A stretch of DNA of 64,000 bases, taken from Chloroflexus aggregans DSM 9485. Its GTDB lineage: Bacteria; Chloroflexota; Chloroflexia; Chloroflexales; Chloroflexaceae. Shown here piece by piece: positions 11,519-24,359 of the stretch. The translations under genes and the position numbers were made by a program. The stretch is from positions 1,501,353 through 1,565,352 of the forward strand of contig NC_011831.1 in the NCBI RefSeq assembly GCF_000021945.1, given 5' to 3'. The notes below the pieces were generated by a model that saw nothing but the letters and a program-made list of their open reading frames with translations, did no database searches and had not been told where the DNA came from. The stretch's first letter is position 1, and each line of letters begins with the position of its first letter.

Positions 11519-11720
11519 TTGGGAGCAAAAGATTGATGCGGGAGCTTTTCCCCGCGAGCACGGGAGCATACTCGCAGCGCTTGCTCTCGCTACAGCAAGA
11601 GATTGCTTCAAGCGCTCCGCACCCTCGCAACGACCACCGGGTACGTCTCCTTGCAATGACAGGGCAAGCTTGTGATTGCGAGCCGCCGTTAGGCGGCGAC
11701 GTCATCCCCCGCGCGTGCGG
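11519..11720. repeat. Dispersed intergenic repeat (GCAATGAC-type)
   Basis: The stretch with CAAGAGATTGCTTC, GCGCTCCGCACCCTCGCAA and TTGCAATGACAGGGC resembles 63395-63440 (GAGACTGCTCC, GCGCTCCGCGCCTCGCAATGACC). Repeats of this general form, with TCGCAATGAC, are common between genes in many bacterial genomes. No coding sense is apparent. Confidence 0.4.
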
Positions 11721-12400
11721 CGTCTTTGCACACGTCGCGCCTTTGCGTTACCCCCGCGGCGTCTTTGCACACGTCACGCCTTTGCGTTACCCCCCCGCGG
11801 CGTCTGTGCGCACTTCGCGCCTTTGCGTTACCCCCCTCAGCGTCTGTGCGCACTTCGCGCCTTTGCGTTACCCCCCCGCAGCGTCTGTGCGCACTTCACC
11901 CCTTTGCGTTACCCCCCTCAGCGTCTGTGCGCACTTCGCGCCTTTGCGTTACCCCCCTCAGCGTCTGTGCGCACTTCGCGCCTTTGCGCTACCCCCCTCA
12001 GCGTCTGTGCGCACTTCGCGCCTTTGCGTTACCCCCCTCAGCGTCTGTGCGTACTTCGCGCCTTTGCGCTACCCCCCTCAGCGTCTGTGCGCACTTCACC
12101 CCTTTGCGTTACCCCCCTCAGCGTCTGTGCGCACTTCACCCCTTTGCGTTACCCCCCTCAGCGTCTGTGCGCACTTCGCGCCTTTGCGTTACCCCCCCTC
12201 AGCGTCTGTGCGCACTTCGCGCCTTTGCGCTACCCCCCTCAGCGTCTGTGCGCACTTCACCCCTTTGCGTTACCCCCGCGGCGTCTGTGCGCACTTCGCG
12301 CCTTTGCGTTACCCCCCTCAGCGTCTGTGCGCACTTCGCGCCTTTGCGTTACCCCCCCGCGGCGTCTGTGCGCACTTCGCGCCTTTGCGCTAATCCCCGC
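11707..12400. repeat. Tandem array of about 17 copies of a 40-bp repeat
   Basis: The core CGCGCCTTTGCG recurs every 39-41 bases from about 11738 to 12381. Units read roughly CGTCTGTGCGCACTTCGCGC then CTTTGCGTTACCCCCCTCAG, with variants at a few positions (CTCAG or CCGCGG at the junction; GCGTT or GCGCT). Units abut with no unique spacers, so it is not CRISPR. Because 40 is not a multiple of 3, all three frames stay open over long runs, giving meaningless ORFs of Cys/Arg/Leu/Pro. It lies directly before the intact PTPS-like copy and is the reverse complement of the GCAAAGGCGC family found elsewhere in the window. Confidence 0.93.
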
Positions 12401-12449
12401 GGCGTATCTACGAGCGCGTATGCTGTCTGCACGAAACAAAGACAAAACC

Positions 12450-12478
12450 TTGACAAAAGAGACGGACTGTGAGATTAA
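12450..12478 (+). promoter_or_regulatory. Candidate promoter for PTPS-like copy 2
   Basis: TTGACA (12450-12455), a 17-base spacer and GATTAA (12473-12478). The -35 is perfect and the -10 weak. It would give this copy and the glycosyltransferase their own transcription after separation from the upstream genes. Confidence 0.4.
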
Positions 12479-12566
12479 GGTGGTAACTCTCTTTGCTCGT
12501 GCAAACCAGCAGCAAAGCAGTCGCACCCGATATCACCCGACCAGTGCCCGACACAGGAGTACCCGC

Positions 12567-12959
12567 ATGTACGAAATTGGCGTCAGCGCCCAATTTGAAG
12601 CTGCCCACCGGCTTGAAGGCAATTTCGGTCCGGCCACCCGTATGCACGGCCACACCTACCGGCTAGAAGCCATCGTCACCGGTGAGCGTCTCCAACCTGA
12701 CGGCACGCTCGTTGATATGAGCCAACTCCAAGCAGCAGTGCAGAGGGTTGTCGCCGATTTACACTATCGCGATCTCGGAACCGTCGAAGGGTTGCGCGAC
12801 ATCAACACCACTGCTGAGCATGTTGCCTACTATTGCTGGCGACGGATTGCAGCGGCGCTCAGCGGAGCCGGTCTCACGACCCTAACCGTGCGTATCTGGG
12901 AAAACCCACAGGTCTATGCGGCGTACAGTGAAACACTGGTATCATCAGACGGTACATAG
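12567..12959 (+). CDS. PTPS/QueD-like protein, copy 2, lacking the catalytic Cys
   Basis: 130 residues, differing from the copy at 8405 at only five positions (Ile4, Gly5, Arg15, Arg60, Thr103 here). It keeps the zinc ligands His14, His27 and His29 and likewise has Ala23 where PTPS and QueD carry the nucleophilic Cys. The ATG at 12567 follows an AGGAG ribosome site (12555-12559); the much longer open frame reaching back to 11676 is only the 40-bp repeat array. The intact GT4 gene begins 12 bases after the stop, the same spacing as in the broken copy, so this pair is probably the ancestral, working arrangement. Confidence 0.85.
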   Translation: MYEIGVSAQFEAAHRLEGNFGPATRMHGHTYRLEAIVTGERLQPDGTLVDMSQLQAAVQRVVADLHYRDLGTVEGLRDINTTAEHVAYYCWRRIAAALSGAGLTTLTVRIWENPQVYAAYSETLVSSDGT

Positions 12960-14121: not shown

Positions 14122-15231
14122 ATGAACAAAAGTAAGACGGTACCAACCCTCATCAGCTTCGCGCTTGTTGTTGTGCTCACCGCCTGCGGCGGTACTGCCA
14201 GTGCCCCTGCTCCCACTCCCACAACGGCAGAATCGGCAAACCCAACACGCACGCCTCGCCCAACAGCCGCTAATGCGCAACCAACAGCCGCACCAACCAC
14301 TGCCGCAGAGGGATCGATCATCCGACCGCCGCCCACTAACAACCAAAGCGGACTGACCACACTCGGTAATGTTCAAGTAGAGATGAGCATTGAGGGGACC
14401 ATCAAAACGGAAGGGCAAGCTGATGAGTCGATCCAGATAGTGATGCGGGAGATCCGGCTGCAAAACGGCAATCGGAACCTTGTAATCGAATCGACAACAC
14501 CTGACCAAGGAATCGAGCGCATCAACTACTTTCTCATCGACGGTGAAAGCTTTCAATACGCTGAACGCGACAACGATCGTACCTGTATTAGCGTGAGCGG
14601 CAGCGATTTCTTTACCGGAAGTATAATCACACCAGAGTCCTTGATCGGTGATCTCAAAGAAGCAACTCTCGCCGAACGTGGTGTACAAGTCAACGGTTTT
14701 ACCACCGATCGTTACACCTTCAGCTTAAACGAGCAGAATCTTGGTTATCAAGGGCAAGCAAACGGCGAAATCTGGGTAGCAAGCAACCCGAACATCGTGG
14801 TACGACATATTGGCACCCTGAACGGCTCATTTGGTGGGATAGCTGTTGAAGAAGGGGGCGAGATACTTCCGCAATCGACCGGGAATCTGAGCTGGAAGTA
14901 CAACGTCACTCAGATCGCGGCAAACACCACCATCACCCTCCCTGAGGTATGTGCGCAACAGCAAACAGCCGGTGCCGACATTCCACTCCCGCCAAACATC
15001 AGCAATACGTTGCGTACCAGCAATTTGATCAGCTTCGAGACAAGCGACACAGCAGCAAACATCGCTCAGTTTTATCAGACCGAGATGGTGGCAAAGGGAT
15101 GGCAAGCGAGCGAAACCAATCAGTACGGTGACACATACCAACTAACATTTACCAAGGACGGTCGTACTGCAACTGTCAACATCTCGGCAGGTGATAAACA
15201 AACGATGGTGATCATCCTTCTTGACTCGTAG
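14122..15231 (+). CDS. Secreted lipoprotein of unknown function
   Basis: 369 residues. A positively charged start, a hydrophobic core and the lipobox LTAC (Cys about residue 21) show a lipid-anchored exported protein. A Thr/Pro/Ala-rich linker (about residues 25-65) leads to a mainly beta domain (about 75-275) with the general look of LolA/LppX-like or outer-leaflet carrier proteins, then a smaller domain (about 290-369) with ANIAQFYQTEMVAKGWQ. No enzyme motif is seen. It has its own promoter, is not part of the ilv operon downstream, and its function is not assigned. Confidence 0.75.
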   Translation: MNKSKTVPTLISFALVVVLTACGGTASAPAPTPTTAESANPTRTPRPTAANAQPTAAPTTAAEGSIIRPPPTNNQSGLTTLGNVQVEMSIEGTIKTEGQADESIQIVMREIRLQNGNRNLVIESTTPDQGIERINYFLIDGESFQYAERDNDRTCISVSGSDFFTGSIITPESLIGDLKEATLAERGVQVNGFTTDRYTFSLNEQNLGYQGQANGEIWVASNPNIVVRHIGTLNGSFGGIAVEEGGEILPQSTGNLSWKYNVTQIAANTTITLPEVCAQQQTAGADIPLPPNISNTLRTSNLISFETSDTAANIAQFYQTEMVAKGWQASETNQYGDTYQLTFTKDGRTATVNISAGDKQTMVIILLDS

Positions 15232-15435
15232 GACACGATTAACGTCACAAGAGCGGTGCGTATCGAATAACGGGGGCAAGCGACAAGCGCGGTTACCGAC
15301 ACACCCGACGGGATCAAACTCCGACTGCTCGATTCAGGCGGCATTACAACGCAGCAACACCGCATCGGGAAAGGACAGGATAGCATCCTTTCCCATTCCT
15401 ATGTCAGCCAGATCGCACTTCGGTATGATCCCAGA

Positions 15436-15464
15436 TTGACAAATTCGTCACCCTATGGTATCCT
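15436..15464 (+). promoter_or_regulatory. ilv-leu operon promoter
   Basis: A perfect -35 TTGACA (15436-15441), a 17-base spacer and TATCCT (15459-15464). Transcription should start near 15471, about 30 bases before the leader peptide ORF. It is among the strongest promoter matches in the window. Confidence 0.75.
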
Positions 15465-15501
15465 CATCGCGGATAGTCATTTAGGCAAAGTACACAAACC
15501 T

Positions 15502-15585
15502 ATGGCCGCTCACTTTGTAAGCCTTATCCTCCTTGTACTCGTACTCCTCCTTAGCCTTATTGGCGGGTGGAGCAAGCGTGTTTAG
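15502..15585 (+). CDS. Branched-chain amino acid leader peptide (ilvL-like)
   Basis: A 27-codon ORF between the promoter and a terminator. Residues 8-20 read LILLVLVLLLSLI: 12 of 13 are Leu, Val or Ile, and 14 of all 27 residues are branched-chain. This is what a ribosome-stalling control peptide for an ilv-leu operon should look like, comparable in concept to enterobacterial ilvL and leuL. The stop codon (15583-15585) touches a GGGAGG segment (15585-15590) that can pair with CCTCCC (15630-15635), which is also the 5' arm of the terminator. Stalling at scarce BCAA codons would leave GGGAGG free to form the antiterminator; fast translation would cover it and allow termination. There is no strong Shine-Dalgarno. 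Confidence 0.75.
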   Translation: MAAHFVSLILLVLVLLLSLIGGWSKRV

Positions 15586-15627
15586 GGAGGGGAAGGTCAC
15601 AAAGCCCCGGCTCAGGATGTAAGACTG

Positions 15628-15656
15628 AACCTCCCGCAAAACGGGAGGTTTTTTAG
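15628..15656 (+). terminator. Attenuator (intrinsic terminator) of the ilv-leu leader
   Basis: Perfect 9-bp stem AACCTCCCG (15628-15636) / CGGGAGGTT (15642-15650) with a 5-base CAAAA loop, running straight into a T tract (15649-15654). It lies 43 bases after the leader-peptide stop and more than 300 bases before ilvB, so it can only serve premature termination. Confidence 0.85.
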
Positions 15657-15672
15657 TACCCTACTGAAACGT

Positions 15673-15777
15673 ATGATGCGGCTCATCAACATCATCATCA
15701 ACTACTGGCAACACCTTTGGTTGCAGCCGCACGTCGCGCTCGTGCCGGTTGTCATCAATCGGCAACGCAAACAATGA
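15673..15777 (+). CDS. Possible second leader ORF, Ile/Val/Leu-rich
   Basis: A 34-codon ORF just after the attenuator. Residues 4-9 are LINIII and residues 21-28 include VALVPVVI; 13 of 34 residues are branched-chain. It has no clear Shine-Dalgarno and no following hairpin with a T tract, so it may be chance, but the composition next to a true-looking leader peptide is notable. Confidence 0.25.
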   Translation: MMRLINIIINYWQHLWLQPHVALVPVVINRQRKQ

Positions 15778-15984
15778 TTCACCGCCGCCACGTCGGCGCA
15801 TTGCCGCGCGTCGGCTTGCTCACATCGCAGTGAGCAGCGGCGAAACGCCCCACTGCTGTGGCTCGTCGGTTGTTGGATCGGTCGTCGTCAACGGTGCCAT
15901 CGCTTACGAGAATGGCAACCGTGAGGTACGACTGTGCAAGCAATGGTTGTTTCAGATTCATCACATGAGGACAGGAGTAGTTCG

Positions 15985-17727
15985 ATGACCAAACCACTCA
16001 CCGGCGCCCAGATCATGTGCGAGGCCCTCATCCGCGAGGGTGTCGAAGTCATGTTCGGTATTCCCGGCGGCGCAATCATGCCCTTCTACTATGCGATGTG
16101 GGACTATCGCGACCGGCTGCGCCACGTGCTCTGTCGCCACGAGCAAGGGGCCGGTCACGCGGCTGAAGGCTACGCCCGCGCAACCGGTAAAATCGGCGTG
16201 TGCATCGGCACCAGCGGACCCGGTGCGACCAACCTCGTCACGCCCATCGCCGATGCAATGATGGACAGCACCCCTCTGTTGGCCATCACCGGCCAAGTCG
16301 GTAGCCACGTGCTCGGGAAAGATGCTTTTCAAGAGACCGACATCACCGGCATCACGATGCCGATCACCAAACACAACTATCTCGTCAAGAATGTTGACGA
16401 AATCGCCTACGTTTTCAAAGAAGCAATCTACATCGCGACGACCGGACGTCCAGGCCCGGTATTGATCGACATCACCAAAGACGCGATGCAGAAAACGACG
16501 GTACCGAATTGGGATATCAAATTGAATTTACCCGGTTACAAACCAACCTATCAGGGCAACCGTCGCCAGATCCGTGAAGCAATTAAGTTGCTCATCAATG
16601 CCAAGAAGCCGCTCATCATCGCCGGTCACGGCATTATTATGTCGGGTGCGCATCGTGAACTACAAGAGTTTGCCGAACGGCTGCGCATCCCGGTGATTAC
16701 CACCCTCCACGGGATCGGCGCCATTCCCGAAAATCACCCACTCTGCATTGGTATGCCCGGCATGCACGGCTGGGTCCACGTCAACCGCGCTATTCAGGAA
16801 TGTGATGTTCTATTCAACATCGGTGGTCGCTTTGATGACCGGGTGACCGGCAAAGCAAGCACCTTTGCGCCTAACGCCCGCATCATTCACGTGGACATCG
16901 ATCCATCGGAGATCGGAAAGAACGTGCGGGTTGATGTGCCGATCGTCGGCGATGCCCGGCTCGTGTTGCAGGCGCTGCTCGAGGATTTGCCGCCGCCGAG
17001 TGAGCTGGCCGAACTGCACACTCATGCTTCCGACTGGATGGAGCATATTCGCGAGATGCAAGACAAGCATCAGGGGAAGCAACAGTACAAGAACCGAGCC
17101 GCAATGGCCAACATGGCGTTACCGCCACACGATGTCTATGAAGCGCTCAGCCGTACCCTTAACGCACGTGGCAACTATCGAGTGGTGACCGACGTTGGCC
17201 AGCACCAAATGTGGGCCGCTCAGTTGATCGACTGGAACCATGGGCCGCGCACGCATATTACCTCGGGGGGGGCCGGAACGATGGGCTTCGCGGTACCGGC
17301 AGCGCTTGGTGTGGCGATTGCGTGCCCGCACGAAACCGTCTGGGCCATTGTCGGTGATGGTGGTTTCCAGATGACCAACCAAGAAATGGCGACGATTGTC
17401 CAAGAGGGTCTTAAGAACATTAAGGTAGCAGTGATCAACAATGGCTACCTCGGTATGGTGCGGCAATGGCAAGAGTTGTTCGAGAATAAGCGCTACAGCG
17501 GCACGCCACTCTCCGGTCCCAATTTTGCCAAGCTGGCCGAGGCCTATGGCTGGAAGGGGCTGACCGTCGAGCGCAGCGAAGATGTCCAAGCCGCCATTGA
17601 TGAAGCGTATGCAACCGATGGCCCTGTCCTGATCGACTTCCGCGTTGAGCGTGAAGTGAACGTCTTCCCGATGGTGCCACAGAACAAGTCGATTGGCGAG
17701 ATGATTCTCTCGGAGTCGCAGGCGTAA
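15985..17727 (+). CDS. ilvB: Acetolactate synthase, large subunit
   Basis: 580 residues from the ATG at 15985, which has an AGGAG site (15973-15977); the longer frame to 15934 is leader sequence. The enzyme joins two pyruvates (or pyruvate and 2-oxobutyrate) to acetolactate/acetohydroxybutyrate with ThDP, Mg and FAD, the first common step to Val, Leu and Ile. Visible are the catalytic-Glu segment HEQGAGHAAEGYARATG (about residue 50), the central FAD domain, and the ThDP motif from GDGGFQMTNQE to VAVINNGYLGMVRQWQ (about 455-495). It opens a seven-gene operon and is followed after 39 bases by its regulatory subunit. Confidence 0.97.
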   Translation: MTKPLTGAQIMCEALIREGVEVMFGIPGGAIMPFYYAMWDYRDRLRHVLCRHEQGAGHAAEGYARATGKIGVCIGTSGPGATNLVTPIADAMMDSTPLLAITGQVGSHVLGKDAFQETDITGITMPITKHNYLVKNVDEIAYVFKEAIYIATTGRPGPVLIDITKDAMQKTTVPNWDIKLNLPGYKPTYQGNRRQIREAIKLLINAKKPLIIAGHGIIMSGAHRELQEFAERLRIPVITTLHGIGAIPENHPLCIGMPGMHGWVHVNRAIQECDVLFNIGGRFDDRVTGKASTFAPNARIIHVDIDPSEIGKNVRVDVPIVGDARLVLQALLEDLPPPSELAELHTHASDWMEHIREMQDKHQGKQQYKNRAAMANMALPPHDVYEALSRTLNARGNYRVVTDVGQHQMWAAQLIDWNHGPRTHITSGGAGTMGFAVPAALGVAIACPHETVWAIVGDGGFQMTNQEMATIVQEGLKNIKVAVINNGYLGMVRQWQELFENKRYSGTPLSGPNFAKLAEAYGWKGLTVERSEDVQAAIDEAYATDGPVLIDFRVEREVNVFPMVPQNKSIGEMILSESQA

Positions 17728-17766: not shown

Positions 17767-18306
17767 ATGAAGAAGCATACCATCGTCGCCCTCTTGCAAG
17801 ATCGGCCCGGCGTGTTGAGCCGTGTGATCGGGCTGATCCGTCGCCGCGGCTATAACATCGAGAGTCTGGCCGTCGGCCATAGCGAAACCCCCGGCGTGAG
17901 CCGATTGACCATCGTGGTCGAATCGGAAGATGTGGAGCAGGTCGTCAAGCAACTCTACCGCCTGATCGAGGTGCTCAAAGTCAGCGATGTTACCGACGAT
18001 CCGACGGTTGAGCGGGAGATGACGATGATCAAAGTTCATGCGCCACCGGCAGCCCGCCACGAGATTATCTCGATGTGTAGCGTGTTCGGCGCCCGGATCG
18101 TTGATGTGGGGGCGAACACGATGATTATCGAGATGACCGGGACGCCCGGCAAGGTGGAGAACTTTATCGAGGTCGTGCGCCCTTACGGGATCAAGGAAAT
18201 GATGCGCACCGGTCGAATTGCCATGGTACGCGGCGCCCGTGGGCACAACGCCGGCGAGTATGTCGAGCCGGCGACCAACGGTGCGAAGGTACCGGTGCTT
18301 AACTAA
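17767..18306 (+). CDS. ilvN: Acetolactate synthase, small (regulatory) subunit
   Basis: 179 residues, typical of the longer IlvH/IlvN type. The N-terminal ACT domain is plain: HTIVALLQDRPGVLSRVIGLIRRRGYNIESLAVGHSETPGVSRLTIVV, the site where valine binds for feedback inhibition. The second half (about residues 80-165) is the partner domain that activates the large subunit. AAGGAG precedes the start. A short C-terminal tail beyond residue 165 is not conserved in my recollection. Confidence 0.96.
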   Translation: MKKHTIVALLQDRPGVLSRVIGLIRRRGYNIESLAVGHSETPGVSRLTIVVESEDVEQVVKQLYRLIEVLKVSDVTDDPTVEREMTMIKVHAPPAARHEIISMCSVFGARIVDVGANTMIIEMTGTPGKVENFIEVVRPYGIKEMMRTGRIAMVRGARGHNAGEYVEPATNGAKVPVLN

Positions 18307-18320
18307 ACAGTGCTATGCCT

Positions 18321-18343
18321 GAGACGCCCTTTGCGGGCGTCTC
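18321..18343 (+). terminator. Intercistronic hairpin between ilvN and ilvC
   Basis: Perfect 9-bp arms GAGACGCCC / GGGCGTCTC with loop TTTGC start 15 bases after the ilvN stop. It is followed by GGTATTTCT, a weak T content, so it is more likely a partial terminator or RNA-processing/stability element than a full stop. It could set the ilvBN to ilvC expression ratio. Confidence 0.5.
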
Positions 18344-18405
18344 GGTATTTCTAACCAACCGCTTGTGGCATACGGTTGCCACGTTAGAGTGAGGAATGAA
18401 CCATC

Positions 18406-19428
18406 ATGGCAGAGCTGTACTACGACAATCAGGCCGACCTTAATCGCTTGAAACACAAGCCGATTGCGATTATCGGCTTCGGTAGCCAGGGTCACGCTCA
18501 CGCCCGTAATCTGGCCGATAGCGGTCTCGATGTACGGGTCGGCCTCTACCCCGGCTCGAAGAGCTGGGCTAAAGTCGAGGAAGCCGGACTGAAAGTGATG
18601 ACGGTGGCAGAAGCCGCCCGTGAAGCTCAGATTGTGATGATCTTGACACCGGATATCGGTCAAGCTGAGCTGTACCGCGAGCACATTGCCCCGGCAATGG
18701 AACCGGGTAAAACGCTAATGTTCGCCCACGGTTTTAACATCCGCTTCGGCCAAATCGTGCCACCCGCAGGGATCGACGTGAGTATGGTCGCTCCCAAAGC
18801 CCCCGGTCACCGGGTGCGTGAGGTCTTCGTGCAAGGTGGTGGTGTGCCGGCGCTGATTGCAGTAGAACAAGATGCAACCGGTGGTGCGTTCGAGGATGCC
18901 TTGGCGTATGCTAAAGGGCTTGGCTGCACCCGTGCCGGTGTGTTGCGCACCACGTTTGCCGAAGAGACCGAGACCGACCTGTTTGGCGAGCAGGTCGTAC
19001 TCTGTGGTGGGGTGAGCGCACTGGTGAAGGCTGCCTTTGAAACGCTCGTCGAGGCCGGCTATCAACCGGAAGTGGCTTACTTCGAGTGTATGCACGAGCT
19101 GAAACTGATCGTTGACCTCTTTTATCAGGGTGGTCTCAATTACATGCGTTATTCGGTGAGCGACACGGCAGAGTGGGGAGATTATACCGCCGGCCCCAAG
19201 ATTATCACCGAACAGACCCGTGCCGCGATGCGCCAGATACTGGCAGACATTCAGAGTGGTGCGTTTGCCGAAGACTGGATCGAAGAGAACCACAATGGCC
19301 GACCGCGCTTTAATGCGTACCGACAGGCCGACATTAATCACCCAATTGAGCAAATTGGGCGCGAATTGCGCCGAATGATGCCGTTTGTCAACCCGCGCGA
19401 AGTGAAGCCAGGTGAGGGCGGGGCGTAA
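18406..19428 (+). CDS. ilvC: Ketol-acid reductoisomerase (class I)
   Basis: 340 residues, the short class I length. The Rossmann loop [25 protein letters not shown] (residues about 18-42) binds the nucleotide, with the following GLYPGSKSW loop typical of NADPH preference. [14 protein letters not shown] and [13 protein letters not shown] (Mg-binding Asp/Glu) and the second-domain [12 protein letters not shown] are in place. It rearranges and reduces acetolactate to dihydroxyisovalerate using Mg and NADPH. The last 20 residues are loosely conserved. Confidence 0.97.
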
Positions 19429-19436
19429 TGTAGATA

Positions 19437-19462
19437 GGGGCACACGGTCGTGCGTGTGCCCC
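19437..19462 (+). other. Intercistronic hairpin between ilvC and leuA
   Basis: Perfect 9-bp arms GGGGCACAC / GTGTGCCCC with an 8-base loop directly after the ilvC stop; no T tract follows. Probably an RNA stability or processing element. Confidence 0.45.
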
Positions 19463-19497
19463 ATTCAGAACTTAACCATGTTAGCAGGAGGCGATGT

Positions 19498-21204
19498 ATG
19501 ACCAACACCACCGAACCGAGTGTAGAATACGTCCGTATTTTCGACACGACCCTCCGTGATGGCGAGCAAGCTCCCGGCTGCACAATGACCCTGGAGGAGA
19601 AGCTAGAAGTCGCCCGCCAACTTGCCCGCCTCAACGTTGATATCATCGAAGCCGGCTTCCCTGCGGCCTCGCCCGGCGACTGGGCTGCCGTTCACGAGAT
19701 TGCCCGCGAAATCGGTACGCCCGATGGCCCGATTATCGCGGCGCTGGCCCGCGCCAACCGTGACGATATTGACAAGGCGTGGAGCGCGATCCAACCCGCC
19801 GCCAAGAAGCGCATTCACACCTTTATGTCAACTTCAGACATTCATCTGGAGTATCAATTCCGCAAGACCCGGGCTGAAGCGCTGCAACTCATCCACGAGA
19901 TGGTGAGCTATGCCCGTTCATTGTGCGAGGATGTCGAGTTCTCACCGATGGATGCCGGACGCACCGATCCGCTCTTCTTGCGCGAGGCGGTGGCGGTAGC
20001 GGTGGCTGCCGGTGCCACGACGTTGAACATCCCCGATACGGTCGGCTATCTCACCCCCGATGAGTACGGTGCAATGATCCGTGACTTGCGCGAGAACGTG
20101 CCGGGGATCGAGAACTGCATCCTCTCGACCCACTGCCACGACGACTTAGGCATGGCCGTGGCCAATTCACTGGCCGGAGTGCGAGCAGGCGCACGGCAGG
20201 TGGAGTGTACGATTAACGGGATCGGTGAGCGAGCCGGCAATGCTTCACTCGAAGAAGTGGTGATGGCGCTGCATACCCGCCAACAGTATTACGGACTGCG
20301 CACCCGCATCAATACGCGCGAGATTGCACGGACCTCACGACTGGTCAGTAGTTTTATCGGTGTGCCCGTACCGCCGAACAAGGCGATTGTGGGGGCGAAT
20401 GCGTTTGCCCACGAATCGGGTATCCATCAAGATGGCGTTTTGAAGTATCGCCAGACCTACGAGATCATGAGCGCCGAGACGGTCGGTTTCGATAGCAATA
20501 CGCTGGTGCTCGGTAAACACTCTGGGCGTCATGCTTTCCGCAAGTATCTCGAAGAGAAGGGGTACAAGCTGAACGATGACGAATTCCAGCATGTCTTCGC
20601 CCGCTTTAAAGATCTGTGTGACCGCAAGAAGAAGGTTGACGATCGCGACATCGAGGCGCTGATCGCGGGTGAGATGCAACACACCCCAGAGCTGTATAAA
20701 CTCGATCACGTGCAGTACGCTTCAGGGGTTGGCATGATCCCAACCGCGACGGTGCGGCTGATCGGTCCCGATGGTCAGGCCAAAGTGGATAGCGCACAAG
20801 GTACCGGCCCGGTCGATGCGGTGTATCAGGCGATTAACCGGATCATTCAGCGCCCAAACGAGTTGATCGAGTTTTCGATTAACGCCATTACCGAGGGGCT
20901 TGATGCCGTTGCCGAAGTAACGGTTCGCATTCGCGAGCAGGGTTCGTCGGCACGCCTTTCGGAGAGTAGTAGCACTGCAACGAGCTTGACCGGTCGGCGA
21001 CAGTCCCAGCAGATCTTTAGTGGGTATGGTGTTCATACCGACACGATTGTTGCCGCTGCGCAAGCGTATATGGCGGCGCTGAATAAGATGCTGGCCGCCC
21101 GCCAAGAGCGGATCAAGGCTGAGGCGATGGCGTATTCTGCCGGCTATAGTGGTGAAGCTACAACCCTGCCGGTGGATATTTTTGGCGGTAGTACGTTGGG
21201 GTAG
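19498..21204 (+). CDS. leuA: 2-Isopropylmalate synthase
   Basis: 568 residues from the ATG at 19498, which follows AGGAGG; the longer frame from 19450 has no ribosome site. The catalytic TIM barrel has [16 protein letters not shown] at the N-terminus and the metal-binding [16 protein letters not shown] (about residue 218). [16 protein letters not shown] and HESGIHQDG follow. The C-terminal LeuA allosteric domain (about residues 425-560) carries the leucine-inhibition site. It condenses acetyl-CoA with 2-oxoisovalerate, committing carbon to leucine. The last 30 residues extend past the usual domain end. Confidence 0.95.
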
Positions 21205-21304
21205 CGGACCATACGATGGGTGGGGGCAGGATTCATCTGCGCCCATCCACATACTGTTCTTGCGCAGGTGGTACGAAGTATCCGGTTGTTGTCATTGATG
21301 TTGT

Positions 21305-22156
21305 ATGCAAACGATTGCCTACCTCGGTCCACCGGGGACATTTAGTGAAGAGGCTGCGCTGGCGTATGCTGCCGGTCGGGAAGTGCGTTTGTTGCCTCTC
21401 GCAAGCATCCCAGCCGTCGTGACGGCGATTGAAACCGCAGCAGCGACGGTCGGTGTTTTACCGATTGAGAATTTACTTGAGGGGAGCGTCAGCTATACGC
21501 TTGACTTACTGATCCACGAGACCAATTTACAAATCACGGGCGAGATTGTCGTACCGATTCGACAATATTTGCTGGCCCGACCCGGTTTACAGTTGAGCGA
21601 CATTAAAGTCTTGTACGCGCACCCCCAGTCACTTGCCCAGTGCCGGCGTTTCGTTGAACGATGCTTACCCGGTGTGATCACCGTCGCATCGCTGAGCAAT
21701 TCGGCTGCACCGGCTGAAGCGATGGCCGATGAGCGGCCGGCAGCCGCTATCGGTACGCTACGCGCTGCCGAGTTGGTGGGAGCAAGTATCTTAGCACGCG
21801 AGATCGCCGATAGTCCGCATAACGTTACCCGTTTTGTGGTCCTGGCACACGAAGATGCCCCACCGACCGGCGATGATAAGACGAGTTTTTGCTTCGGTTT
21901 CACCCGCGAGGATCGCCCCGGTAGCCTGGTTAGTGCGTTGCAGGAATTGGCCGCTGAAAATATTAACATGACGAAACTCGAATCGCGACCAACCCGCGCG
22001 ATTCTGGGGCAATATATCTTTTTGGTTGACATCAACGGACATCGGCACGAACCACACGTTGCACGTGCCCTTGAACGGATTCGCGAACGTACCGGAATGC
22101 TGAAGATTTTTGGCAGTTATCCTCGCTGGAAAGGAAGCAACGGCAATCACCGCTAG
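21305..22156 (+). CDS. pheA: Prephenate dehydratase
   Basis: 283 residues, monofunctional (no chorismate mutase domain). It opens with the diagnostic AYLGPPGTFSEEAAL, has GVLPIENLLEGSV and the catalytic TRF motif in HNVTRFVVLAHE (about residue 177). The C-terminal ACT domain (about residues 195-275) contains NMTKLESRPTR, the ESRP segment for phenylalanine feedback. It turns prephenate into phenylpyruvate. Its place between leuA and leuC is odd: it is the only aromatic gene in an otherwise BCAA operon, 100 bases after leuA and 21 bases before leuC. Confidence 0.95.
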   Translation: MQTIAYLGPPGTFSEEAALAYAAGREVRLLPLASIPAVVTAIETAAATVGVLPIENLLEGSVSYTLDLLIHETNLQITGEIVVPIRQYLLARPGLQLSDIKVLYAHPQSLAQCRRFVERCLPGVITVASLSNSAAPAEAMADERPAAAIGTLRAAELVGASILAREIADSPHNVTRFVVLAHEDAPPTGDDKTSFCFGFTREDRPGSLVSALQELAAENINMTKLESRPTRAILGQYIFLVDINGHRHEPHVARALERIRERTGMLKIFGSYPRWKGSNGNHR

Positions 22157-22177
22157 CCGCGGCAAGGAGTGGTAAGG

Positions 22178-23611
22178 ATGGATAAACCGCGCACGTTATT
22201 TGAAAAGGTCTGGGAATCTCACCTGGTGCGTCCAGAGACGCCGGAAACACCGGCCGTTCTTTATATCGATCTGCATCTGATCCACGAAGTAACGTCACCA
22301 CAGGCATTTACCGAGTTGCGCCGACGCGGATTGCGTGTACGCCGACCCGACAAGACGTTAGCGACGATGGATCATAGTACACCGACGACGCCACGGAACC
22401 ATCTCGGTATCATCCCGGTTGTCGACCCAATGGCGATGAGCCAACTTGAGCAATTGCGGAAGAATTGCGCCGAGTTTGGGATCCCGTTGTTTGAGTTGGG
22501 TGATGAGAATCAGGGAATCGTACACGTGATCGGGCCGGAGCAGGGGTTGACTCAGCCGGGTATGACGATTGTGTGTGGTGATAGTCATACCAGTACCCAC
22601 GGTGCGTTTGGAGCGTTGGCCTTTGGGATTGGTACGTCGGAGGTGGGGCATGTTTTGGCTACCCAGTGCCTCTTGCAGCGTAAACCAAAGACCTGCGCTG
22701 TGCGGATCGATGGTCGGCTTGGCCCTGGCGTGACTGCTAAAGACATTATCCTGGCTCTGATCGCGAAATACGGTGTCGGTGGTGGCACCGGCTACGTTTT
22801 TGAGTATATGGGTGAAGCTATTCGCGCGCTCTCGATGGAAGAGCGGATGACGATCTGCAATATGAGTATCGAGGGTGGGGCCCGCGCCGGCATGGTCGCA
22901 CCTGATGATACGACGTTTGAGTATATTGCCGGTCGTCCGTTTGCTCCGAAAGGGGCTGCATTTGAGGCGGCGGTCGCTTACTGGCGCACGCTCCCAACCG
23001 ACGATGGGGCTGTGTTCGATCATGAACTGACGTTGTCGGCCGGTGATCTGAAGCCGATGATTACTTATGGAACGAATCCCGGTATGGGGATTCCGATTGA
23101 TGCACCAATCCCCCGACCTGAAGAGATGCCTGATGCGCGCAGCCGGGCGGCACTCGATAAAGCGTTGGCGTATATGGGTCTTGAGCCGGGGAAGCCGCTC
23201 CTCGGTCATCCGGTTGATGTTGTCTTTATCGGTTCATGTACGAACTCGCGCTTGTCGGATCTGCGACAGGCAGCCCAGTTCTTCCGTGGACGTAAGGTGG
23301 CGCCGGGGGTGCGTGTCATGGTAGTACCGGGTTCGCAGCAGGTGAAGCGTGCGGCGGAAGCTGAGGGGTTGGATCGGATTTTCAAGGAGGCAGGCGCTGA
23401 ATGGCGCGAAGCCGGTTGCAGCGCTTGTTTGGGAATGAACGACGATAAGGTGCCGCCGGGGAAGTATGCGATTAGCACCTCCAACCGTAACTTTGAGGGG
23501 CGACAGGGTCCGGGTGCCCGCACGATGTTGGCTAGTCCGTTGACGGCGGCGGCAGCGGCGGTTACCGGTGTCGTTACCGATCCGCGCACGTTGTTAACGC
23601 AAAGGCGCTAA
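22178..23611 (+). CDS. leuC: 3-Isopropylmalate dehydratase, large subunit
   Basis: 477 residues, bacterial LeuC type. The ATG at 22178 is chosen because AAGGAG ends 8 bases before it; an upstream GTG at 22169 overlaps that site. Aconitase-family motifs: [32 protein letters not shown], then the [4Fe-4S] cysteines in IGSCTNSR and CSACLGMN. With LeuD it isomerises 2- to 3-isopropylmalate. The final residues and the stop codon (23609-23611) lie inside the first unit of a 17-bp repeat array, so the natural C-terminus seems to have been rewritten by the repeat. Confidence 0.96.
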
Positions 23612-23714
23612 GAACGCAAAGGCGCTAAGAACGCAAAGGCGCTAAGAACGCAAAGGCGCTAAGAACGCAAAGGCGCTAAGAACGCAAAGGCGCTAAGAAC
23701 GCAAAGGCGCTAAG
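23596..23714 (+). repeat. 17-bp tandem array at the leuC-leuD junction
   Basis: Seven perfect head-to-tail copies of AACGCAAAGGCGCTAAG, then a partial eighth at 23715. The first unit encodes the last LeuC residues and its TAA stop; the array fills most of the space before the leuD ribosome site. The unit is a member of the GCAAAGGCGC family seen elsewhere. Confidence 0.95.
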
Positions 23715-23744
23715 AACGCAACCCAAGGTTGACAGGAGATGGGC

Positions 23745-24359
23745 ATGGAACCAATTTCAACGATTACCGGTAAAGTGGTCGTCTTACCGGTTGAGAATAT
23801 TGACACCGATCAGATTATTCCGGCGCGTTTTCTCAAAGTTACAGACAAGAGTGGTTTGGCGGCGGGGTTGTTTGAGGCATGGCGCTACCTACCCGATGGG
23901 ACTCTCAACCCCGATTTTCCGCTGAATCGGCCGGAAGCAGCAGGAGCTACTATTCTCATTAGCGGTCGCAATTTTGGCTGCGGTAGCTCACGTGAGCACG
24001 CGCCATGGGCTTTGCAAGACTACGGTTTTCAAGCTGTGATCGCTCCCTCGTTTGCCGACATTTTTCGGAATAACGCGCTCAAGATCGGGTTGTTGCCGGT
24101 AATGGTCGAGCAGAGTGTCTACGATGAGTTAGTGGTCATGTATGCGAATGACCCTTCCATGGTGCTAACAATTGATCTAGCAGCGCAGATCGTCGCCTTA
24201 CCCGATGGCCGGCAGGTACATTTTCCTATCGATGCGTTTAGTAAGTATTGCCTGCTGCACGGAGTCGATCAGCTTGGCTTTTTGCTCCAACAAGAAGCGG
24301 CGATTGCGGCTTACGAGGCAGCACACCCCCAGCCGGTGCAAACGACGGTACGCCGTTAA
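23745..24359 (+). CDS. leuD: 3-Isopropylmalate dehydratase, small subunit
   Basis: 204 residues. The ATG at 23745 has AGGAG 6 bases upstream, whereas the ATG at 23739 sits directly against that site. ENIDTDQIIPARFL, then NFGCGSSREHAPWALQDYGFQAVIAPSFADIF, the swivelling-domain motif that contacts substrate. It is the partner of LeuC. It ends the operon; leuB (isopropylmalate dehydrogenase) and ilvD/ilvE are not in the window, so the pathway is completed elsewhere. Confidence 0.95.
   Translation: MEPISTITGKVVVLPVENIDTDQIIPARFLKVTDKSGLAAGLFEAWRYLPDGTLNPDFPLNRPEAAGATILISGRNFGCGSSREHAPWALQDYGFQAVIAPSFADIFRNNALKIGLLPVMVEQSVYDELVVMYANDPSMVLTIDLAAQIVALPDGRQVHFPIDAFSKYCLLHGVDQLGFLLQQEAAIAAYEAAHPQPVQTTVRR

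Follow-up and report, generated by a model that had tools for sequence, protein, structure and literature searches.

A probable leader-peptide attenuator of the ilv-leu operon in Chloroflexus aggregans and its conservation in the order

The upstream region of the ilv-leu operon

The window analysed here, a stretch of 64,000 nucleotides from Chloroflexus aggregans DSM 9485, carries a set of genes for branched-chain amino acid synthesis headed by ilvB. Judging from gene order and spacing, ilvBNC-leuA-pheA-leuCD are likely co-transcribed. The gene pheA (prephenate dehydratase, 21305-22156) lies between leuA and leuC, and given this position inside the operon, phenylalanine synthesis may share the branched-chain amino acid switch. 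The features of the locus are as follows.

15436..15464, + strand: predicted promoter, TTGACA and TATCCT spaced by 17 bases, with TG before the -10 hexamer; predicted start near 15471
15502..15585, + strand: leader ORF 1 of 27 codons, MAAHFVSLILLVLVLLLSLIGGWSKRV; Leu control codons CTC/CTT, Val control codon GTA
15544..15552, + strand: segment 1, CTCCTCCTT, part of the Leu codon run; putative protector, able to pair with segment 2
15585..15590, + strand: segment 2, GGGAGG, 5' strand of the putative antiterminator, overlapping the leader stop codon
15628..15650, + strand: segments 3 and 4, hairpin of the predicted intrinsic terminator, AACCTCCCG-CAAAA-CGGGAGGTT, with its T tract reaching 15654
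15676..15777, + strand: ORF 2, 33 codons, MRLINIIINYWQHLWLQPHVALVPVVINRQRKQ, Pro-Val/Arg-rich; a further ATG at 15673
15783..15842, + strand: candidate three-way-junction RNA; closing stem 15783-15788/15837-15842, hairpin A 15792-15815, hairpin B 15817-15836
15985..17727, + strand: ilvB, acetolactate synthase large subunit (NCBIfam), first gene of the operon; its ATG at 15985 is preceded by AGGAG
17767..24359, + strand: ilvN, ilvC, leuA, pheA, leuC and leuD (NCBIfam), rest of the likely operon

An earlier note on this DNA had proposed that the region upstream of ilvB works by attenuation, and the elements it named were all recovered: the promoter with its 17-base spacing and TG, the 27-codon ORF in which 12 of the 13 residues at positions 8-20 are Leu, Val or Ile, the 9-bp terminator stem followed by six T, and the complementarity of GGGAGG (15585-15590) to CCTCCC (15630-15635). 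ORF 2 and the three-way junction, which lie between the terminator and ilvB, were absent from that note. Two hallmarks of an attenuator are found in the window: an intrinsic terminator lies between the leader and the first gene, and a short ORF with a run of end-product codons, whose translation is predicted, precedes the first enzyme gene. No clear Shine-Dalgarno sequence was seen before the ATG of leader ORF 1 in the window.

We asked how unusual this arrangement is. In a custom scan of both strands of the 64 kb, a short ORF rich in Leu, Ile and Val (LIV-rich) followed by a terminator occurred only once, and it appeared in 0 of 2000 first-order Markov resamplings of 15236-15984. The pattern of the terminator hairpin occurs once in the genome. 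A standard terminator scan did not list this hairpin in the window, which we think is because the stem uses part of the T tract. The RNA from 15471 to 15660 folds better than shuffled sequence (z = -4.2), and the protector pairing between segments 1 and 2 is present in the predicted fold. The 6-bp match between GGGAGG and CCTCCC is unremarkable by itself, as 18 of 100 shuffles of the G-rich stretch equal it; what makes this pairing convincing is its covariation in relatives.

Two further observations concern the window at large. A strict scan found one intrinsic terminator per strand in the 64 kb, so that such hairpins seem rare. The stretch 11533-12959 is rich in repeats, with several overlapping long frames and CALRAFALPP-like repeats, and is perhaps not coding.

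Conservation of the leader in the order

We looked for ilvB in 82 genomes from the order and could read the head of the operon in 75. Apparent repeats of counted genomes (loci L004-L012, L018 and L020-L025) were left out of the counts. The family labels are inferred from the titles of matching loci; f1 includes Chloroflexus, f2 Herpetosiphon and f4 Roseiflexus. Inspection upstream of ilvB gave a leader and hairpin in 53 genomes, and the leader of G016 was reached via its ORF 2. A covariance model of the leader, R1, built on 19 f1 sequences, matched 62 of the 82 genomes at E <=0.1 (some matches partial) and indicated, for many of the remaining genomes, a leader roughly 2 kb upstream; these sites, together with the corresponding region in relatives, brought the total to 75. 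Seven genomes were left unjudged, five with no usable ilvB start (G009, G038, G041, G062 and G072) and two at contig ends (G039 and G063); R1 gave no match at E <=0.001 in these seven, and it also misses many leader-bearing genomes.

In 22 of the 75 genomes ilvD comes first, and the leader still heads the operon. The ilvD assignment comes from NCBIfam in G016 and was made by eye from an MRSD start in the others, including G030 and G054, where the link to ilvB was not seen. An apparent absence of the leader in g5, g6, g8, g14, g16, f4g26, Herpetosiphonaceae (f2) and part of f3 proved wrong: these genomes carry it before ilvD, some 2 kb farther upstream or, in G030 and G054, on a separate contig.

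Within the genus, the ORF, the codon run and the hairpin are kept in all seven readable Chloroflexus genomes (of eight). The promoter hexamers, with TTGACAAA and TGGTATYCTC present in 7/7 aligned genomes, are preserved together with the leader, the GGGAGG at its stop codon and the terminator stem, while the flanks diverge and the terminator loop varies. Beyond the genus, the conservation that the earlier note had suggested looking for holds throughout: every one of the 75 readable heads has the Leu/Val/Ile-rich ORF with its codon run, a promoter-like site, the hairpin and, near the leader end, a complement of the hairpin 5' arm. This complement offers at least 5 contiguous pairs in 75/75 and at least 6 in 62/75. 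The sigma-70-like site upstream of the leader matches at 9-12 of 12 positions in 75/75 genomes, an agreement that is partly by selection, since the best match in a 200-nt stretch was taken per genome. As scored, the hairpin stem has one or two mismatches in 12/75.

A run of at least four T follows the hairpin in 63 of the 75 genomes and is missing in 12, mainly Roseiflexus (f4g32) and its neighbours. These 12 hairpins bear on the possibility that the leader acts through translation control or Rho-dependent polarity, above all where the tail is poor in T. Leaders of similar look can indeed behave unexpectedly: according to excerpts of PMC1262725, a similar-looking ilvB leader in Streptomyces coelicolor does not respond to changed control codons. 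Nevertheless, the six T behind the window hairpin and the T runs of the other genomes among the 63 are what transcription termination would call for, and we regard control by translation or Rho as very unlikely.

Covariation of the pairing segments

Segments 2, 3 and 4 change together in several lineages. They read GAGAGG/CCTCTC/GAGAGG in f3g23, GCGGAAGG/CCTTCCGC/GCGGAAGG in f3g24 and three of the four f3g25, and GGGAGGGGCT/AGCCCCTCCC/GGGAGGGGCT in f2g20 and f2g21. f4g30 was dropped as a further triple compensatory change; its hairpin has two mismatches. To quantify the agreement between segments 2 and 3, hairpin 5' arms were swapped among genomes. A first test over 21 genera gave native 2:3 pairing equalled or bettered in 51/5000 permutations. 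When 31 genera were used, this happened in only 2/20000, and with swaps within families the native pairing was matched in 145/20000. Segment 2 has a predicted antiterminator pairing that would exclude the terminator and covaries with it. Together with the conservation in all 75 heads, these co-varying partners support the attenuation reading of the earlier note.

The protector pairing between segments 1 and 2 is supported more weakly than the antiterminator pairing. Its swap test was weak (153/5000). Across 21 genera the leader codons paired with segment 2 better than synonymous recodings did, with a combined P of 7e-6 in which kinship is uncorrected. L132 of f4g34 showed no pairing advantage over synonymous recodings, and no CCTCC was found in the f4g34 codon run.

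Codon usage in the leader

The leader codons are strongly biased. In a 14-codon stretch of the seven Chloroflexus leaders, all 56 Leu codons were CTC or CTT, and all 21 Val codons were GTA. For comparison, in 12 genes of the analysed DNA, CTC and CTT together made up 181 of 526 Leu codons (34%) and GTA 68 of 416 Val codons (16%). The 21 other f1 leaders used CTC/CTT for 130 of 136 Leu codons, and the f4g34 leaders used CTA for 30 of 39. In all 19 aligned f1 sequences GTA-CTCCTCCT was invariant, with one extra codon after GTA in L109. According to excerpts of PMC1183508, theory holds that attenuators pick codons read by a sensitive isoacceptor. The bias observed here fits this theory and a constraint from RNA pairing alike, and the frozen CTC/CTT/GTA codons offer a test of the isoacceptor theory outside Proteobacteria.

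The codons also help to judge whether ORF 1 might instead encode a small membrane protein that acts as a protein, with the hairpin an unrelated terminator. The Chloroflexus leader peptide does consist of a hydrophobic stretch and a basic tail, like a single membrane helix. Such a protein would not account for the frozen third codon positions of GTA-CTCCTCCT or for the extreme codon use. Moreover, between genera the C-terminus and the stop of the leader shift while the RNA complement stays, and a hairpin with a matching complement is found in 75/75 genomes. Overall, a membrane protein seems to us very unlikely.

A model of attenuation and its kinetics

The anatomy, conservation, covariation and codon bias are direct observations, and they make it very probable, on comparative grounds, that the leader controls the ilvBNC-leuA-pheA-leuCD operon by ribosome-mediated attenuation of transcription. 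We infer that the leader is translated, that ribosomes stall in it, and that Leu is the main signal, with the following order of events. Transcription would start near 15471, and a ribosome would translate the 27-codon leader. When charged tRNA-Leu (also Val and Ile) is plentiful, the ribosome would reach the stop codon and mask GGGAGG at 15585-15590; CCTCCC at 15630-15635 would then pair with the downstream GGGAGG, and transcription would terminate in the T tract. When Leu is scarce, the ribosome would stall on the CTC/CTT codons and mask CTCCTCC, so that the freed GGGAGG could pair with CCTCCC before the 3' arm of the terminator exists, with read-through into the operon. If the leader were not translated, CTCCTCC would pair with GGGAGG and the terminator would form.

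We utilized a simple ribosome footprint to model, for nine lineages, how far the terminator 5' arm is sequestered before the 3' arm is made. In L001, sequestration of the 5' arm was 0.63-0.72 when the A site lay between 14 and 2 codons upstream of the stop (0.65-0.67 at codons -14 to -10); it was 0.36 without a ribosome and 0.37 when the stop codon occupied the A site. In 9/9 lineages, sequestration with the ribosome at codons -14 to -10 exceeded both the free-RNA value and the stop value. The contrast was small in L094 (0.91 versus 0.72 and 0.62), and in L123 the effect had disappeared by codon -6 owing to the position of segment 2 within the ORF. At equilibrium after full transcription, the terminator won in eight of the nine lineages at any ribosome position, the exception being L094. 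This suggests that the switch must be kinetic. A kinetic decision is also what known attenuators make.

The hairpin could still belong to the gene upstream (14122-15231) as its 3' terminator, with the operon starting downstream of the hairpin. The distance from the end of that gene to the hairpin is about 400 bases, and downstream of the hairpin (15749-15778) there is a sigma-70-like site matching at 9 of 12 positions. Against this, the conserved promoter precedes the leader, and in each of the four families of the order leader and hairpin accompany the start of the ilv operon; both facts make an upstream-gene terminator highly improbable. Finally, control by a T-box, a ppGpp riboswitch or another known RNA class deserves almost no weight: among 20 loci scanned, ilvB is preceded by a T-box in two, L027 and L028, which their titles and distance place outside the order, but in the window no hit to an Rfam family, T-box RF00230 and the ppGpp/ykkC riboswitch included, reached its gathering score, and a search of 15430-15990 at E <=5 gave three matches (E 0.028, 1.2 and 2.4), all far below gathering scores, one of them the Phe leader at 17.9 bits against a gathering score of 55.

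Relation to known leaders

The ilv and leu operons of Proteobacteria have leader-peptide attenuators. The Chloroflexus leader resembles these in its run of control codons, its putative protector, antiterminator and terminator, predicted to be mutually exclusive, and the synonymous codon bias in the run; it differs in belonging to another phylum and in having no RNA-family match in the window. The Leu codons also differ, being CTC/CTT in Chloroflexus and CUA in the Salmonella leu leader described in excerpts of PMC1183508.

Actinobacterial ilvB leaders, including that of Corynebacterium ilvB-II, likewise have an upstream ORF rich in branched-chain amino acid codons and a terminator before ilvB, whereas their sequence and spacing differ, and the excerpts of PMC1262725 and PMC10272879 describing them mention neither a second ORF nor a three-way junction. 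When our scan was applied to actinobacterial-titled loci, ORF and hairpin were found in 2/15 (L054 and L077). The ilvB-OMG and Leptospira ilvB RNA motifs are similar too, as they are associated with ilvB, contain an upstream ORF rich in branched-chain amino acids and are proposed attenuators (PMC10272879, in part). The lack of an Rfam match in the window would set them apart from the Chloroflexus leader. According to the same excerpts, ilvB-OMG occurs in 'various bacterial phyla', and an overlap with the Chloroflexus leader is possible. In some Chloroflexota, T-box leaders (RF00230) ahead of ilvB likewise respond to the supply of amino acids, whereas none is present in the window; T-boxes have been reported in Chloroflexi in excerpts of PMC3766115.

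The earlier note knew of no described case of such attenuation in Chloroflexota, and the open-access matches listed do not contradict it: none of them described by title or abstract a leader-peptide attenuator in this phylum. Lopatovskaya et al. 2010, reportedly an attenuation survey, lies outside that scope. Our results would thus extend leader-peptide attenuation to a phylum with no described case among the matches listed. As stated in excerpts of PMC2965389 (2010), leader-peptide systems had by then been shown only in Proteobacteria and Actinobacteria, ermC aside, and that work adds Firmicutes.

ORF 2 and the three-way-junction RNA

ORF 2 is recognizable in 22 of the 75 genomes, namely 12 in f1, 8/8 in f2 and 2 in f4. 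The encoded peptide begins in an amphipathic-looking manner, contains a PVPV or PIPI-like stretch and is rich in Arg at its end. In the 20 cases measured, the hairpin and the ATG of ORF 2 are 25-46 bases apart, mostly with a Shine-Dalgarno-like sequence ahead of the ATG, and pairwise dN/dS was 0-0.9 in three groups. In the window genome no clear Shine-Dalgarno sequence precedes it, and it has diverged in L084 and L087; on account of this loss and divergence, ORF 2 may be decaying in Chloroflexus. A profile of ORF 2 gave 14 hits at E <=1.3e-7, 13 of them its own rows and one new (G016), and the next hit was at E 4e-4. All 14 lie upstream of the ilv operon, which gives no support to further copies of ORF 2 elsewhere. 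The profile did not find the f2 ORFs, whose kinship with the f1 versions is suggested by place, length and pattern only. If the two are kin, ORF 2 would be ancestral and often lost.

For the three-way junction, a model (R2) gave one strong match each in 24 of 41 f1 genomes at E <=7.9e-6, of which 19 are rows of the model and 5 are new. Each of these 24 is placed after the leader hairpin and ahead of the first gene, and the remaining 41 genomes of the order gave no match of that strength. Elsewhere there were weaker matches, with E from 0.0056 to 0.05, three of them in the window genome. The junction as a genome repeat was not borne out. Over the window element, Rfam gave no match even at E up to 5. 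In the alignment of 19 sequences, 87.4% of cells pair, and both-side changes occur in 10 of 17 pairs versus 5.0 in shuffles (reached by 0/500), a comparison that favours the structure since it was drawn from the same sequences. The count of further pair types is not unusual, being reached by 75/500 shuffles, and one proposed pair fails in 13/19 sequences. Ten of the 19 fold unaided into the three-way junction.

We rejected ORF 2 and the three-way junction as one unit: each occurs alone, and their spacing varies. A composite switch, in which the attenuator would be followed by a second checkpoint made of ORF 2, which may encode a small protein or a nascent-chain arrest peptide, and a new three-way-junction RNA class confined to the ilv leader of the Chloroflexus family, is a tentative and rather doubtful reading. 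Possible roles for ORF 2 and the junction include a second checkpoint, mRNA stabilization and a small protein.

Distribution outside the order

When R1 was run over 158 genomes of the class, 72 matched at E <=0.001, 19 of them outside the order. We examined 20 stretches covering 18 of these 19 genomes. A LIV-rich short ORF was present in 19/20, and 17 had an IlvB frame behind it, 14 recognized by eye from the N-terminus and 3 by NCBIfam. A hairpin follows the ORF in 8/17, in families f9, f10, f11 and f14, a count to be read with the preference of R1 itself for such hairpins. In family f5 the LIV-rich ORF is present, and no hairpin was found after it. This spread suggests a leader attenuator in the common ancestor of the order, perhaps of the class, and the T-boxes at the same gene in two other Chloroflexota loci offer a natural comparison for the replacement of one sensing system by another.

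Several minor observations emerged from these searches. In five f5 genomes (L219, L221, L222, L224 and L234), ilvB is preceded by two short LIV-rich ORFs, of which the second ends in LVLILLGL or a looser version of it. In L236 (G018:C330:5249-5396), a second LIV-rich short ORF and hairpin precede a malic enzyme gene (NCBIfam) rather than an ilv gene. MAGs titled Gemmatimonadetes (L013-L017 and L019) carry an IlvB 65-71% identical to that of Chloroflexus (Herpetosiphon, 64%), reflecting either transfer or misbinning, and no leader was seen within 700 bases upstream. In Thermus igniterrae (L081), the region 119 to 50 bases before the start of the IlvB match contains MRSVLALSLALVLIVGPAGGRV together with a hairpin rich in G+C and a short run of T, possibly an attenuator in another phylum.
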